From NCBI GenBank assembly GCA_014297435.1, contig JACOQA010000002.1:1-64000 (forward strand): DNA of 64,000 nucleotides, in the 5' to 3' direction. The translations under genes and the position numbers were made by a program. Below the pieces are notes generated by a model. The model saw only the letters and a program-made list of their open reading frames with translations, had not been told where the DNA came from and searched no databases. This DNA comes from Candidatus Nanohaloarchaea archaeon (GTDB lineage: Archaea; Nanohalarchaeota; Nanosalinia; Nanosalinales; Nanosalinaceae). Every line of letters begins with the position of its first letter. Position 1 is the first letter of the stretch. This document shows positions 11,926 to 60,200 of the stretch, one piece after another.

Positions 11926-12452
11926 CAAAAGTCTTTCTCGGACGTTTTCAGCCACTCCATCTCGGACACAAGAACGTTATCGAGAACCAAGACGATCTAG
12001 TGGTTGCTGTAGGAAGTTCGGGAAAATCGGGCGAGGAAGAAAACCCCTTAAGTTTTGAACAGAGGAAAAGACTGATCAAGGACTGTTTTCCTGATGTTGA
12101 AGTCGTTGGAGTTGAAGATACTGAAGATGATGTCGAATGGCTTCGGAACTTACTCGAAAAGACTGGAGCTGACACTATTCTTTCGAGAAATTCAAATGTA
12201 AGAGCGATAGTTGAGAATTCAGATCGAGATGTCAAAGTTGTTAAGCAAGAGCTTTACGACGAGGAGATCTATTCCGGAACCGAAGTTAGAAGAAGAATAC
12301 GAAGCGGGGAAGAGTGGCGTTATCTGACACCGCCTTGTTGCAAAGAAAGCCTGGAAGAGTTCCTAGAGGATATCAAAGATTCTGGCATACAGCATGAGTT
12401 TGAGCCCGGCTGGAAACGAGAGAACGCGAGTTACGACACCGCTGAGAAATAA
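11922..12452 (+). CDS. nadM: Nicotinamide-nucleotide adenylyltransferase
   Basis: 176 residues, the normal archaeal size. FLGRFQPLHLGHKNVI contains the HxGH nucleotidyl-transfer motif, VVAVGSSGKS follows, and YSGTEVRRRI corresponds to the ISGT-x-RR motif near the C-terminus. The enzyme joins NMN and ATP to make NAD. It overlaps the metalloprotease paralogue by four bases, and it converges with nnrD, which repairs damaged NAD(P)H, so two NAD-related genes lie end to end. Confidence 0.93.
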   Translation: MTKVFLGRFQPLHLGHKNVIENQDDLVVAVGSSGKSGEEENPLSFEQRKRLIKDCFPDVEVVGVEDTEDDVEWLRNLLEKTGADTILSRNSNVRAIVENSDRDVKVVKQELYDEEIYSGTEVRRRIRSGEEWRYLTPPCCKESLEEFLEDIKDSGIQHEFEPGWKRENASYDTAEK

Positions 12453-13315: not shown

Positions 13316-14341
13316 ATGGTAAACGTTGCAGTAAACGGTGTCGGAACGATCGGGAAAAGGGTCGCGGAAGCGGTCAAAAAACAGGAAGACATGACTCTCT
13401 ACTGTATCTCAGATGTACAGGCAACAGGACAGCTAAGGAGTATTCTATCCGAAGACGGATCCCTACACGGAACACCGCTTTACGGCTCTACCGAGGACGG
13501 AGCCCAGAATATGGCAGACGAAGGAATGCATGTTGACGGAGTTCTTGAAGACGTTATCGACGAAATCGACGTTGTAATTGATTGTACACCTCCTGGTATT
13601 GACCAGAAGAACAAAGAAAATCTTTACGAGCCTAATGACGTTAAAGCTGTGTTCCAGGGTGGCGCACCCGATGAAATAGCGGAGGTAAAGTTTAACGCGG
13701 ACGCAAACTACGAAGAAGCCAGAGGAGAGGACTTCGTTAAAGTAGTTTCTTGCAACACAACATCACTTTCAAGAACTCTAAGTGCAGTTGATGAAAGCTT
13801 TGGAATTGATAAGGTTACCGCCAACCTGGTTAGAAGAGGCGGAGACATACCTCAAGACTCCCGAGGACCTATTAACTCCACAATACCAGTAACAGAAGTT
13901 CCATCTCACCACGGACCGGATGTTCAGGCAGTTATGCCCGAACTTGATATTACAACTCTAGCAGTAAAAGTCCCTGTAACTTATGGTCACGTTCACATGG
14001 TCACTGCCGAGCTTGAAAAGGAAACCTCTGAAGAGGATGTAAAACAGGCTTTCCGCAATCAGCCCCGTGTAAACCTTGTTTCAGCAGGGGAAGGATACGA
14101 TTCAACCGGCAAAATTCATGAGAAGATGCGCGACATCGGAAGAAAGAGAAGTGATATGCAGGAAGCCGGAGTCTGGGAGGAAACAGTTTCCGTAGACGAA
14201 GAGAGGGTTCACTGGATCCACATGGTTCATCAGGAAGCGATCGTAGTTCCGGAGAACGTGGATGCGATCCGTTCAATGTTTGAGATGGAGGAAAAACAGG
14301 ATTCAATCGAGATGACAAGTAGCTCCATGGGTATCGAGTAA
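13316..14341 (+). CDS. gap: Type II glyceraldehyde-3-phosphate dehydrogenase (archaeal)
   Basis: 341 residues from the ATG at 13316 (VNVAVNGVGTIGKRVAEAV), chosen because the longer frame runs through the nnrD promoter. The Rossmann motif NGVGTIGKRVA, the catalytic cysteine in VVSCNTTSLSRTL and HGPDVQAVMPELDITTLAVK fit archaeal type II GAPDH, which oxidises and phosphorylates glyceraldehyde 3-phosphate using NAD(P). A CCTTTTAATCC lies about 33 bases upstream of the ATG. It heads the sugar-metabolism block and is followed at 32 bases by a glycosyltransferase gene. Confidence 0.94.
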   Translation: MVNVAVNGVGTIGKRVAEAVKKQEDMTLYCISDVQATGQLRSILSEDGSLHGTPLYGSTEDGAQNMADEGMHVDGVLEDVIDEIDVVIDCTPPGIDQKNKENLYEPNDVKAVFQGGAPDEIAEVKFNADANYEEARGEDFVKVVSCNTTSLSRTLSAVDESFGIDKVTANLVRRGGDIPQDSRGPINSTIPVTEVPSHHGPDVQAVMPELDITTLAVKVPVTYGHVHMVTAELEKETSEEDVKQAFRNQPRVNLVSAGEGYDSTGKIHEKMRDIGRKRSDMQEAGVWEETVSVDEERVHWIHMVHQEAIVVPENVDAIRSMFEMEEKQDSIEMTSSSMGIE

Positions 14342-14373
14342 TAACTTAATTACTTCTCTCCATCTTTTTTCTT

Positions 14374-52019: not shown

Positions 52020-52309
52020 GGTTCTCTCCTTTGTTCATGAAAGTTCCTAAACGCATCCAAACACTTTTCAAGTCTTTAGATTCTTTCTTTTATTGTTTGA
52101 AGCATTCTAAACATGTTTCCGGTAAGCGGTTAGTAATGAGGTCGAAAGTTGGATTGAAGGGTGTTTAAACGTTTGATTCGTTGAAAGGAGCGTGCTAAAC
52201 CTTTCAAAAAGCTTTAAGGATCGTTGAGAACGGTCAAAAACGTTCTGTGAACGGTTAAAACCGGGTTCAAAAGCCAGCTTTTATAAAGGTGGGGAAGGTT
52301 AAACACGAC
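52020..52309 (+). promoter_or_regulatory. S-layer gene promoter region with operator-like repeats
   Basis: This AT-rich stretch contains several TTTAAAC/CTAAAC-like motifs. Two direct repeats, GAACGGTCAAAA (52228-52239) and GAACGGTTAAAA (52249-52260), start 21 bases apart, two helical turns, so a regulator could bind both on one face. AGAACG...CGTTCT (52227-52232 and 52241-52246) is an overlapping inverted repeat. TATAAA at 52282-52287 predicts a transcript start near 52310. The repeats lie about 50-80 bases upstream of that start, a suitable place for an activator. Confidence 0.5.
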
Positions 52310-52532
52310 AAGGACTAGCAACAGCTAGAGCCTTGGGTCCCGTGATCCCAATTACAGGGAACGACCCAAACACAGTAACCGGGCGTACTTTTTTTCCGGG
52401 AATCGGGATCCCGCGGAGGAATGAACCCTCTCCGTTACCGATAACGGGTTCAGAGGTGAGTCGGCGGACGCACCTCTCGAATATAATAGAAGACACGCGA
52501 CACATCACCCCACAAGGTGAAACACACAAACT
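52310..52532 (+). promoter_or_regulatory. Highly structured leader (about 220 nt) of the S-layer gene
   Basis: Sequential stem-loops can be drawn. (1) AAGG/CCTT around CTAGC-AACA-GCTAG (52310-52334). (2) TTGGGTC/GACCCAA enclosing GTGAT-CCCA-ATTAC (52333-52369). (3) CGGGATCCCG (52404-52413). (4) CCGTTA-CCGA-TAACGG (52432-52447), with outer CCTCT/AGAGG. (5) AGAGGTG/CACCTCT (52452-52477), which excludes the outer part of (4). (6) TCACC-CCACAA-GGTGA (52505-52520), whose 3' arm is the Shine-Dalgarno site, 12 bases before the ATG at 52533. A seven-codon open frame (52421-52444) overlaps hairpin 4. The arrangement suggests mRNA stability or translation control of a very abundant protein. Confidence 0.55.
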
Positions 52533-55331
52533 ATGAATCTAAACATCAAAAAAGTAGGAAAGGCTGTAGCAGGCTCTGCACTCCTCGTAGGCGCAACGCT
52601 TACAGGAGCGGCCGGTCTTGCAGCAGCTCAGGATTCTGGATCCAATTCGATGGATCTAGGAGACTATCCAACACCATTCGTGTCCGAGGACGGACAGGTA
52701 CAGTCCACAATCGTAGTAGGAGAAAACGCAAAAACCGCAGACGTAGTAGGCGCAATCAACGTTGCCGGATCACTAGGACAGGCAGCAATGACAGAAGAAG
52801 AAGTATCCGCTGGATCTTCAGCAGCTTCTTGGAGTGCAACAAACGGAGTATCACTAGACACTTCCAACGACCAGCTGTTCTTCAACGACAACATCGACGA
52901 AGTAAGACAGACACTAACAGAAGACCAGCTTGACATCCTGCAGAGCCACGACGTTCTAACAGGCGACGCACAGCAGGAAGTAGAACAGTACCTCTACGTA
53001 GGAGAACAGAAAGTTCAGTACACACAGCCTGGCGACTCCGACGGAGACCCAGTTCTGAACGTAATGAACCCAAGCAGCGTCGACGTAGACGGACAGAACC
53101 TCTACAGACTTCAAGCTAACTTCGAAGACGGAGTAGAGTTCGAAGAAACAGCTGGAGAGAAGAACGAGGACGTTTACGGAGAAGAAATGGACCTCTTCGG
53201 AAAGACATTTACAATCTCACAGGACTCATTCACATCCGGTAACACAGGACAGCTAATCCTTTACGGATCTAGTCAGGACGTACAGATTTCGTCCGGAGAG
53301 TCCGCAACCGTCACAATTGACGGCGAAGACCACACAATCGCTGTACAGGCTGTTAACACTGAAGGAGTAGTTTACTCTGTTGACGGCGAAGCAGCAGAAC
53401 AGGACGACCTCGACGAAACATTCGACATCGGCGACACAGAAGTCAGAATCGACTCCAAGATCGACCTACAGGACGACCAAGGATCCGCAACATTCTCAGT
53501 AGGAAGCGAAAAACTTGTTCTTGAAGACGATTCGCCTGTAATGACAGGAGACGATGAAGAAGACGTTGAAGGAACACACGTCGGACTATCAACAACAGGA
53601 GACGGAGACATTTCCGACACCAACGAACCTGTCGAGCTTTCCAGCATCGAGATCGCTGTTGGTGCTGACGACAGCGACAACGACTACGTCGCAGCAGGAG
53701 AATCATTCGAAGATCCTGTGTTCGACGACCTAGAGTTCCACTTCGCAGGACTCAACCCTGACGCAGAGTCTGACGACACACCTCAGGTAGAGTTCACAGC
53801 TGACGACGAAACAGCAACAGTCAGCTTTGAAGACGGAGACGACTCAGCATCCCTAGGCTTCGTACATCCTGCAAACACAGACAGCGATGGATTCGGAGCA
53901 AACAGTCTAGCTGACGAAGACGGAGACGCAATCCACGTCTACGAAGGAGCAGCAGTCGAAGAAGACGAGTACTTCGTCTCTGATGCAGGCGACTTCGATC
54001 ACATGTGGGAAGTTACAGGAATCGACGCAGACACAGCAGATCAGAATTCGGATCACGGAGAAGAAGCAACAGTAGACCTAGAAGACAAGGTCTCAGGAGC
54101 TTCAGTTGAAGTAGATGTAACACACACATCGTCAAACAGCAACAACGTCTATTCCGGAACGGAAGTCATCGACGGACAGACCTATGAGTTCACAGTTTCC
54201 GGCGCTGACACAGAAAATACAACAGTTTCCGCAACATACGGAGACGACACCACACATCACGTCTACTCTGCAGTCGACACAGAAAGTGGAGCTTCAGTAG
54301 CATTCCTAAAGTCACAGACTGATGCCGTTTCAAGTAACTCTGGAGATTTCAGTAGCAACGACCAGACCGAGACAATAGTCCTTCCAAGTACAGAAAGCAG
54401 TGGGACACAAGAACTAGACATCACATTTAGTGACGATAATGATGCAGTATCGGTAGCAATCGGCGACAACGCAGCTGAATCTATTTCATCAAGCTCCGAT
54501 TCAACGAGTGAACGAGAAGTAACTGTTGGATCTATGACGTACGATGTCACTCTAACTGTAGATAGTGCTCCAGCCGATGATGAGGTAGACTACTCAGTTG
54601 ACATCGACCCTCAAGTTACCGGCGGAGAGGATATTGCCGGACCTTCGGCAGCAGTCATCCAGCCTCAGGACGACGACGATAACGAGGGAAGTTACCTCGT
54701 TACACCAGGAGTCGACTCTGACGACGATGAGATGGACATCGGAAGCAGCAACGCAGAAGTCCACTACGACGGAGAGGACTACAACGGCAAGACTCTGGAC
54801 GAGACGGACGAAGACGTAGAGTCCAACTACAACACCTACGGAACTTACACCGAGCTCGACACAGATGAGCAGGGAATGTTCACTCTGAACATTCCAGACG
54901 CACAGGCTACAGCTGGTGCAGCATTCACAGGACAGGACGGAGAACTTTCCGCTTCTGGTTCCGCAGGATCTGTCACCACGATGAGTCCTACAGGATGGCC
55001 TGACGCTGCGGCTCTCGACTCAGAAGTTTCGGGATCCGACAGGAACGGCAACCTAATCCTTGTAGGAGGACCTGCAGTCAACACGCTGACTGAAGAACTT
55101 GCTTCCGCGAACAAGACGTGGACAGCAGATCAGTACAGCGAAGGAGACTACGTCCTTGACCTCACAGACGGATTCCAGAACGACGACGGCAACCACGCCC
55201 TAGTTGTAGCTGGATACGGAGCAGAGGACACGACAGCAGCAGCGAACTACCTGGCAAACTACCAGGACAACATGGACGAGATGGACGGAGAGACCACGCT
55301 GCAGAAGTCGACAGTCTCAACATCCCAGTAA
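52533..55331 (+). CDS. S-layer protein, methanococcal type, main copy
   Basis: 932 residues. A signal peptide (VGKAVAGSALLVGATLTGAA, to about residue 33) precedes the mature start. The N-terminal domain shows DLGDYPTPFVSEDGQVQSTI and VVGENAKTADVVGAINVAGS, the signature of methanococcal S-layer N domains. The C-terminal domain shows LILVGGPAVNTLTEELASAN and ALVVAGYGAEDTTAAANYLA, the S-layer C domain. The middle is acidic beta-sandwich material. No membrane anchor or PGF motif is seen. Codons are strongly biased (GGA, ACA, GAC, TTC), as expected for a highly expressed gene. It should form the cell's surface lattice. It is preceded by a structured leader and followed by a pyrimidine-rich terminator region (55332-55375). 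Confidence 0.88.
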   Translation: MNLNIKKVGKAVAGSALLVGATLTGAAGLAAAQDSGSNSMDLGDYPTPFVSEDGQVQSTIVVGENAKTADVVGAINVAGSLGQAAMTEEEVSAGSSAASWSATNGVSLDTSNDQLFFNDNIDEVRQTLTEDQLDILQSHDVLTGDAQQEVEQYLYVGEQKVQYTQPGDSDGDPVLNVMNPSSVDVDGQNLYRLQANFEDGVEFEETAGEKNEDVYGEEMDLFGKTFTISQDSFTSGNTGQLILYGSSQDVQISSGESATVTIDGEDHTIAVQAVNTEGVVYSVDGEAAEQDDLDETFDIGDTEVRIDSKIDLQDDQGSATFSVGSEKLVLEDDSPVMTGDDEEDVEGTHVGLSTTGDGDISDTNEPVELSSIEIAVGADDSDNDYVAAGESFEDPVFDDLEFHFAGLNPDAESDDTPQVEFTADDETATVSFEDGDDSASLGFVHPANTDSDGFGANSLADEDGDAIHVYEGAAVEEDEYFVSDAGDFDHMWEVTGIDADTADQNSDHGEEATVDLEDKVSGASVEVDVTHTSSNSNNVYSGTEVIDGQTYEFTVSGADTENTTVSATYGDDTTHHVYSAVDTESGASVAFLKSQTDAVSSNSGDFSSNDQTETIVLPSTESSGTQELDITFSDDNDAVSVAIGDNAAESISSSSDSTSEREVTVGSMTYDVTLTVDSAPADDEVDYSVDIDPQVTGGEDIAGPSAAVIQPQDDDDNEGSYLVTPGVDSDDDEMDIGSSNAEVHYDGEDYNGKTLDETDEDVESNYNTYGTYTELDTDEQGMFTLNIPDAQATAGAAFTGQDGELSASGSAGSVTTMSPTGWPDAAALDSEVSGSDRNGNLILVGGPAVNTLTEELASANKTWTADQYSEGDYVLDLTDGFQNDDGNHALVVAGYGAEDTTAAANYLANYQDNMDEMDGETTLQKSTVSTSQ

Positions 55332-57215: not shown

Positions 57216-60200
57216 ATGAAGGATATCAAGAAAATTGGAAAGATCGGTGCCTCACTCCTAGTAGGCGTCACCTTAACCGCGTCAGCCGCGGCAAACCTAG
57301 ATGACTACCCACAACCGTTTGTTGATGACCAAGGAATGGTCGACTCAACCATAGTGGTGGGAGAAAACGCAAAAACAGCCGATGTTGTGGGAGCAATAAA
57401 TATGGCGGGAAGCCTCTCACAGCAAGCAACTACAACAGAAAAGGTTTCTGGGGCAGCACAGTCTTGGAGCATGTCACAGGGAGCAACACTCGATACTTCG
57501 AACGACAACCTGTTCTTCCACGACATGATCAGCTCCGTAAGACAGACTTTAACCGAAAACGATCTCTCCGCACTACAGACAACAACAGGTCTTTCGGGTG
57601 ACGCAGAACAAGACATCGAACAGTACCTGTACGTTGGAGATCAAAAGATTGAGTTCGGAAAGACAGATGACGAAGAAGACCCTGAAGTATACGTAAACAA
57701 CCCTTCAACGGTCGAGGCAGACACACCAGGAAGCTATCTATACCAGTTACAGGCAAACTTCCAGGAAGGAGTAGACTTCTACGACAGTTCAGAAACAACC
57801 AATAAGAATACGGATGTCTACGGCGAAGAACTGGAGATGTTCGGAAAAACCTTTACAGTATCACAGGACTCGTTTACATCCAGTAACTCCGGCCAGCTAG
57901 TTCTCTACGGATCCAGCCAAGACGTACAGATAAGCTCGGGAGAATCAGCCACAATTACAATCGATGGAGAGGACCACACCATAAGCGTTCAAGCAGTAAA
58001 CACCGAAGGAGTTGTCTACTCAGTTGATGGAGAATCAGCTGAACAGGACAACGTAGATGAAACCTTCGATATTGGAGATACGGAAGTACGTATTGATTCG
58101 AAGATCAACCTGAAAGATGATACAGGAAGTGCCACTTTCTCGGTAGGTTCTGAAAAACTCATTCTTGAAGACGACTCATCGGTTATGACCGGCGATGATG
58201 AGGAAGAAGTCGAAGGAACCGATGTCAAACTTGAGTTAAGCGATGATGGTTCTGACGGTGACGTAACTGATGGAGACGGAAGTATCGAACTTTCATCCGT
58301 GAAGGTTGCGGTAGGCGCAGCAGATAGCGATGAAAACTACGTAAGTTCAGAACAAAAGTTCGAGGACCCTGTTTTCGGAAGCCTTTCATTCAGCTTCGAA
58401 GGACTATCCTCACTAAACGAGGGAGAGGACATCGAAGTACAGGCACAGAACGACGAAACAGTTGAAGTTTCAACAAACGAAATAACGCAAGGATTCGCCC
58501 ATTACGATGGAAGCTTTTCCCTAGCGGATGATGATGGCGACAAGATTGTCGCGGTCGAAGGCGAACCGGTACAGGAAGACGAGTACTTCACATCTGATGC
58601 AGGCGACTTCTCGCACTTCTGGGAAGTTACAGGACTCGACGCGGACGCACAAGATCCTTCAAGCGGGGACACAGCAACAGTCGAACTCGAAGACAAAATC
58701 TCAGGATCTTCAATCGAAGTCGAACTAGATGCTAACGATGTCGAAAGCGGAGCAGGAGACTCCACACGTGAATACGAAGCAGAGAAAGTTATCGACGGAC
58801 AGACCTACCACTTCTCCTACAACACCGTCTCAAGTGGAGATGAAAACGACGACGAGGTAGAAGTTACTTGGGGAACTGACTCCGACTACTCAGCGACAGG
58901 CTCAGCAAGCTCAGGAGCCACAACAGCATTCCCAACAATCAAAACCGATAACGGAGCAAGACTAGCATTCTACGATCCGGGACAAGATCCTTCCGGTATT
59001 TCAATAGGAGCAAGCCTTACCGGTTTCAGTTCGGATGAAAAATTCTTCGATGTGGCAATTCAGACCAACGAGGGAACTAACGGCTTCGGTTCAGGAGACG
59101 ATATAGTCAGGGATATAGGGGGCTCAGGAACATACTCAGACTCGGCCGACACTAATGTAGCCGGCACAAACCCTTCAGACGGGACATCATTAACAACTTC
59201 AAATCCTTGGAGTGGGGCTACAAATCCTATCGCTTTCGTGGATGACAGTGATTCAACCTGGGAGTCCGGAAGCGACCTAATTATCGAAGACCTGAACAAC
59301 GGAGGAACTGTTTCTTTGGAAGCTGACACCACAGTCAGCCGCGGATCGGATACAACAGTCGATGTAACAGCCGGAACATCACTTAACGACTTAGATGAAA
59401 CAACCTATCTGGCTGTAGATAACGGCAACAACGGCTTCGACGCAGGAACCGATGATGATATAGTAACAGACGATGACGAAGACGGTGTTTACACCTCATC
59501 AGCCGACGTTCTAGCTGATGCAAACGGAGCATCCGGAACAAGCTTCGGAGGAGGAACACCTGCAAGCATCTCCACCGGAGACTCACTTACAGCCTTCGAT
59601 GACACCGATAACGTCTACCTTATTGACACCAACAACGACGGACTACAAGCATCAGGTAACGACGATGTACTGTTCGTTGACGGAGACGGAGACGGCGATT
59701 CAACAACGGGAACCGTAAACACAATCATCAACCAGTCAGTTGACTCGACCTTTACAGGTTCACAGCTCACTAGCTCAAACCCAATCTCATTCAACGACCA
59801 AGACTCGGATGGAACCACAGGAAACGGCGAGTATGAACTCGGACAGGACATCTACGTCGAGGAGAACACAGCGGGAGCCAGAACTTACTCTGCTTCAGCC
59901 GATACCGTGGTAAACGACGAAGGGTCTGCCGATAGAGATGCTGGAGACAGCCTTGTAAGTGTGGGTTCTAACGCCTACTACCACGATGCAGATTCAGGCG
60001 GAACCTACACTTCTGGCGATGAAATCTACCTTGACCTAGATAGTGACTCACAGTACACCGCTCAAGCCGATAACCATATCGCAGGCATCACACTATCAAC
60101 AGCAGGCGCAGGAACATCGGTTAACACCGGAAATCCTTGGAGTGCAGCTAATCCGCCTGTAGCGTTCTACGACGACGGTTCAGGATCATGGGAATCCGGC

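Follow-up and report, generated by a model that had tools for sequence, protein, structure and literature searches.

A family-specific, predicted structured 5' leader of the main S-layer gene in nanohaloarchaea

The S-layer locus, its promoter and a conserved leader core

The genome considered here comprises about 1.0 Mb in 15 contigs, and the stretch under analysis (referred to as the window, 64 kb long) is contig C8. Between 52533 and 63857 it holds three S-layer paralogues in tandem, with products of 932, 1317 and about 840 aa. The product of the first, which starts at 52533, matches PF05124 (S_layer_C, E 7.8e-18) and has homologues in 48 of 100 related genomes; the second and third start downstream, at 57216 and about 61317/61338. 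S-layer proteins generally rank among the most abundant proteins of a cell. Only the first of the three genes has the conserved promoter and leader described in this article, and the core of that leader is absent upstream of the paralogues at 57216 and 61317/61338. The elements of the locus needed to follow the promoter and the core are the following.

52236..52257, + strand: conserved upstream promoter element, window copy AAACGTTCTGTGAACGGTTA; consensus AACSGTTCRTGAACGGTTA from an alignment of relatives
52280..52289, + strand: TATA box/BRE region TTTATAAAGG, recognised from sequence; predicted transcript start at about 52308-52312
52389..52395, + strand: U7 tract directly 5' of helix strand P1b; at least 6 U in 13 of 13 leaders
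52533..55331, + strand: S-layer protein gene, 932 aa, with an N-terminal signal-peptide-like segment; PF05124

In 10 of 13 promoters the upstream element AACSGTTCRTGAACGGTTA keeps a fixed distance from the TATA box, starting 41-43 nt before it, and in the remaining ones its AAACGGTTA/GAACGGTTA half can be seen. It is palindromic in several relatives and is likely the binding site of an activator. In most genomes of the family it is nearly unique to the S-layer promoter. From the TATA-like box, TTTATAAAG at 52280 in the window, to the U-tract downstream of it the distance is 98-135 nt in each of the 13 relatives. Because the TATA box stands at a fixed distance from the conserved upstream element, transcription is predicted to start near 52308-52312, which gives a leader of about 222 nt and agrees with the length of about 220 nt claimed in the preliminary description; this start is likely, being supported by the fixed promoter geometry together with a conserved AUAAGG at the expected position.

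The core of the leader, U6-8(CC)GGGAA(U)CGGGAUCCC-GCGGAG, is near-invariant at 52389-52418 and was first seen by reading upstream of the translated S-layer genes of relatives. The relatives that carry it span many genera, and their S-layer proteins share only about 36-60% identity with the window protein. A pattern search that took in 28 genomes of the class, 19 from the same family and 9 from other families, found the core in 13 of the 19, always before an S-layer gene, and in none of the 9; a reversed control pattern had zero matches in the 28 genomes. The core occupies a single locus in 12 genomes and two loci in one (G017), both before S-layer paralogues. Among the six family genomes without the core, three have no S-layer match and three have fragments or short paralogues only, and none of the six offered a readable intact 5' end of the main S-layer gene. 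The two copies in G017 (L039/L046, G017:C7:57200-61600) are near-identical leader and S-layer 5' regions in tandem, one of which directly follows a short run of N; the pair may reflect a recent duplication, gene conversion or an assembly artefact.

The 64 kb window has only three runs of at least seven T on its + strand, and the U-tract at the 5' end of the core is one of them. Tracts of U6-8 are found 70-110 nt from the predicted start in all 13 leaders, and such a tract is unlikely to be an accident, since every relative keeps it in that interval. No Rfam 15 family reaches the gathering threshold anywhere in the whole window; a U3 match in a permissive search, positioned upstream of the leader, has an E of 4.4 and is meaningless. 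The near-invariant core, the U-tract, the helix that encloses it (P1, below) and the sharing of the element across the family were all absent from the preliminary description.

Fold of the leader and its covariation

The predicted structure of the leader consists of the following parts in addition to the U-tract.

52308..52334, + strand: P0, hairpin CUAGC-AACA-GCUAG at the 5' end, extended by flanking pairs; z of -3.8 in the window
52335..52349, + strand: P1a, 5' strand of a long-range helix, GGGUCCCGUGAUCCC; partner present in 13 of 13 leaders
52350..52388, + strand: variable stretch enclosed by P1; its inner hairpins lack conservation
52398..52412, + strand: P1b, 3' strand of the helix, GGGAAUCGGGAUCCC; most conserved segment
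52414..52434, + strand: P3, hairpin CGGAG...CUCCG immediately 3' of P1; every relative has it paired, and several double changes occur
52452..52477, + strand: strong local hairpin AGAGGUG...CACCUCU; pair probability at least 0.99 at 37 C; conservation not seen
52505..52520, + strand: hairpin UCACC/GGUGA covering the Shine-Dalgarno (SD) site; pair probability 0.87-1.0 at 37 C

With standard 37 C folding parameters, which may misdescribe a high-salt cytoplasm, the segment 52309-52532 folds at -78.8 kcal/mol as compared to -57.2 +/- 4.2 kcal/mol for its shuffles (z -5.1, 0 of 200 shuffles as good), and 52309-52550 gives a z of -4.6. Folding exceeds that of shuffles in the leaders of 12 of the 13 genomes. 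The individual hairpins contribute unevenly: P0 is significant in G000, G002, G006, G008 and G013 and not in all leaders, and the region inside P1 folds no better than its shuffles in most of the genomes. The hairpin at 52452-52477 bears on an earlier proposal that two hairpins compete for the segment AGAGG(TG). In the model, 52452-52458 pairs with 52471-52477 at a probability of at least 0.99 at 37 C and at least 0.90 at 60 C, and since nearly 100% of the pairing goes to this one partner, there is no evenly matched competitor and hence no balanced switch at this position.

The long-range helix P1 joins 52335-52349 to 52398-52412 across about 50 nt and encloses the U-tract. Most positions of P1a pair with 52398-52410 at probabilities of 0.87-0.96 in the window ensemble. 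In all 13 leaders the genome's own P1 duplex is better than those obtained once the 5' region is dinucleotide-shuffled (8 or fewer of 500 shuffles as good), and leaders pair better with their own 3' strand than with strands swapped in from other leaders (p = 0.0022). The two strands vary in a compensatory manner (AAUCGGG/CCCGAUU, AACGGG/CCCGUU, AAACGGG/CCCGUUU and AAUGGG/CCCAU(..)U), and in the hand alignment their length changes are matched as well, an extra base on one strand generally having its counterpart on the other. Hairpin P3 occurs as CGGAG/CUCCG, CGAAG/CUUCG, CGAAA/UUUCG and CGGCC/GGCCG, always paired; in the window, a competing local structure is more stable than P3 by about 4 kcal/mol.

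Because whole-leader alignments made with MAFFT misaligned P1a, a structure-aware realignment was used. The hand alignment, which leans towards structure, has 160 of 161 cells paired in P1 and 60 of 60 in P3. A covariance model built from seven sequences recovered all 13 leaders, and in its alignment 82.9% of cells pair (76.3% in shuffles) and 8 pairs show double changes (3.4 in shuffles); on all five covariation measures the observed value was higher than in every one of 500 shuffles, and each measure fell when the partners were slid by 1-3 columns. Covariation clearly supports the fold formed by P1 and P3. The compensatory changes in homologous leaders for which the preliminary description had called are therefore present, and they favour a functional leader.

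In the whole window genome the covariance model finds only the S-layer leader locus, and in 149 related genomes the model (R1) had no match at E <= 0.01 beyond the family. In G001 and G005, weak hits that might have been members from outside the family lie in or near coding sequence and have no core, and viral hits are unrelated to the leader element. Several other structures were considered and dropped. A local UGGG...CCCA hairpin or pseudoknot in P1a was abandoned because P1a is palindrome-like and the long-range P1 explains the observed changes; a conserved inner hairpin P2 acting as an intrinsic terminator is not above chance in most genomes; and pairing between P1b and rRNA or a further RNA found no support, as nothing elsewhere in the genome complements P1b with 2 or fewer mismatches.

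Possible roles of the leader

Because the fold and the near-unchanging stretch recur only before the S-layer gene in 13 genomes, we regard the leader as a real, undescribed control or protection element and, by comparison of sequences, as a conserved RNA motif that forms a family-specific structured 5' leader of this gene. Conservation and covariation lend strong support to the earlier claim that a functional, structured leader controls the output of surface protein. The structure is well supported; for the function the inference is moderate, and the mechanism is a proposal.

The reading that we prefer, tentatively and at somewhat below an even chance, is that of a constitutive leader that protects the S-layer mRNA and in which P1 closes over an early terminator-like U-tract. 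Runs of U are an archaeal termination signal recognised by aCPSF1 (PMC8716108). In the window, T6 runs in sense orientation are found at 14365, 17378, 37792 and 52014 (+ strand) and at 12451 and 55626 (- strand), and their position about 12-80 nt past stop codons fits U-tract termination in this genome. The leader would be a largely constitutive output element, in which a long and heavily used mRNA would be shielded by the 5' hairpin, by P1/P3 and by GC-rich hairpins further downstream. Once RNA polymerase has cleared the U-tract, P1 could form and lock the terminator-like signal in a closed loop, where the action of the termination nuclease aCPSF1/FttA or of an Lsm protein on it would be limited or regulated; translation would then begin via the GGUGA Shine-Dalgarno site, which precedes the start codon by about 8-13 nt. 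A stability element, as the preliminary description had put it, remains a leading reading of the conserved leader. There is also a bolder version, to which we give a small chance: the helix would close co-transcriptionally, loop out the early U-tract terminator and license readthrough, with the terminated form persisting as an abundant small RNA, and the leader would represent a new class of archaeal cis-RNA.

The strongest competitor, possible though distinctly less probable than the constitutive leader, is conditional premature termination at the U-tract, in which an abundant leader RNA of about 90-110 nt is released and a signal or protein decides on readthrough, the leader being an attenuator and possibly the source of a stand-alone small RNA. 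It would account for the invariant U6-8 tract at 70-110 nt in 13 of 13 leaders, it agrees with the T6 runs just 3' of several genes (for example after the stops at 14341, 37778 and 51986), and very highly expressed ncRNAs have been described in nanohaloarchaea, one of them common to two cultured members (PMC10266531). However, no overlapping antiterminator helix was found in the leader, conservation of the hairpin that precedes the U-tract does not exceed chance, and P1b lies downstream of the tract, so that P1 cannot form before the polymerase reaches it.

P1b is more conserved than pairing alone requires and for this reason may bind something. An autoregulatory protein-binding site, where Lsm, the S-layer precursor or another protein binds the U-tract together with P1b/P3 and controls translation or decay, would explain the conservation of P1b and the U-tract beyond the needs of pairing, and the window genome has an Lsm gene; as a separate explanation we consider it rather improbable, and such a site may be part of the constitutive leader.

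A riboswitch or thermometer that responds to a ligand, salt or temperature through the SD hairpin appears quite unlikely. The SD-covering hairpin noted earlier is real in the window, where 52505-52509 pairs with 52516-52520, and it is stable there and in G004 and G013. Yet it is not conserved: only 3-4 of the 13 leaders have it (G000, G004, G013 and, in another form, G015), and over the 13 leaders SD pairing does not exceed that in shuffled flanks (Wilcoxon p = 0.08). Alternative folds of the SD site or of a terminator that are conserved, as expected of a riboswitch, were not found in the 13 leaders; the conserved residues lie in the P1b helix strand and the U-tract, no further conserved unpaired pocket of the kind seen in ligand aptamers was found in the 13 leaders, and Rfam gave no riboswitch match in the window. 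These observations disfavour the proposed ligand control. Temperature control fares no better, as the predicted fold is nearly constant from 25 to 60 C, with the SD hairpin still paired at 0.91 at 60 C in the model, so that a conserved SD hairpin opening in the physiological range, the mark of an RNA thermometer, is not seen.

It is highly improbable that the core acts at the DNA level, as a site (palindrome CGGGATCCCG) for a regulator or recombinase: the core does contain a perfect DNA palindrome in most genomes, but G006 and G017 break it and yet keep P1 pairing, and the compensatory and matched length changes involve the distant 5' strand. Chance structure without function, which would suit the single-genome hairpins outside P1 and P3 that are not conserved, is hardly credible, being contradicted by the shuffle and swap tests of P1, by the covariation and by a near-identical core found at one locus only across genera whose S-layer proteins are about 36-47% identical to that of the window.

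Relation to known systems

Archaea have few known structured cis-regulatory RNAs, and none is known to us from this group of tiny ectosymbionts. In the present case a 30-nt core is nearly unchanged across genera, compensatory changes define its fold, and it is linked to the protein of the cell surface that makes contact with the host. Should the proposed role of the U-tract be true, regulated or licensed termination in archaeal leaders would become directly testable.

For S-layer genes of the other families examined, leaders of roughly 70-165 nt are predicted; several of these carry 5'-proximal hairpins, and none has the core motif. This suggests that S-layer genes commonly have structured leaders, the form in the window family being its own and elaborate. 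In three leaders of about 70 nt from another family (L005, L012 and L013, in G062, G082 and G040, respectively) there is a strong 5'-proximal hairpin, for example GGACUCGCCC-UUAUGA-GCGAGUCC, which is an unrelated form of structured leader.

The window leader is long, structured, conserved and upstream of the main S-layer gene, and with its start predicted it falls into the descriptive class of structured S-layer 5' UTRs. A leader that resembles it by description is the 5' UTR of the Methanosarcina S-layer gene slmA1, which is 154 nt in M. barkeri and whose role is unknown (PMC3361143). It too is a long leader of the main S-layer gene with several predicted RNA structures, conserved together with the promoter between species; it differs in coming from another phylum and in having more than 91% sequence identity among close relatives, whereas the leader of the window family has the U-tract and P1/P3 with covariation across genera. 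The leader of slpA in Lactobacillus acidophilus is likewise a folded, untranslated part of an S-layer mRNA, with a large stem-loop thought to protect the message (Boot et al. 1996, cited in PMC6482533); it is bacterial and unrelated in sequence, and no U-tract within a long-range helix is described for it in PMC6482533. The U-tract terminators of aCPSF1/FttA (PMC8716108) share the runs of U as a signal, but they are located at the 3' ends of transcripts, while the tract in the window lies in a leader, in a predicted closed loop, and must be read through. Finally, the ncRNAs of Ca. Nanohalococcus and Ca. Nanohalovita, probably the same lineage as the window genome, are highly expressed, structured and of no known family, and one of them is common to the two genera (PMC10266531).
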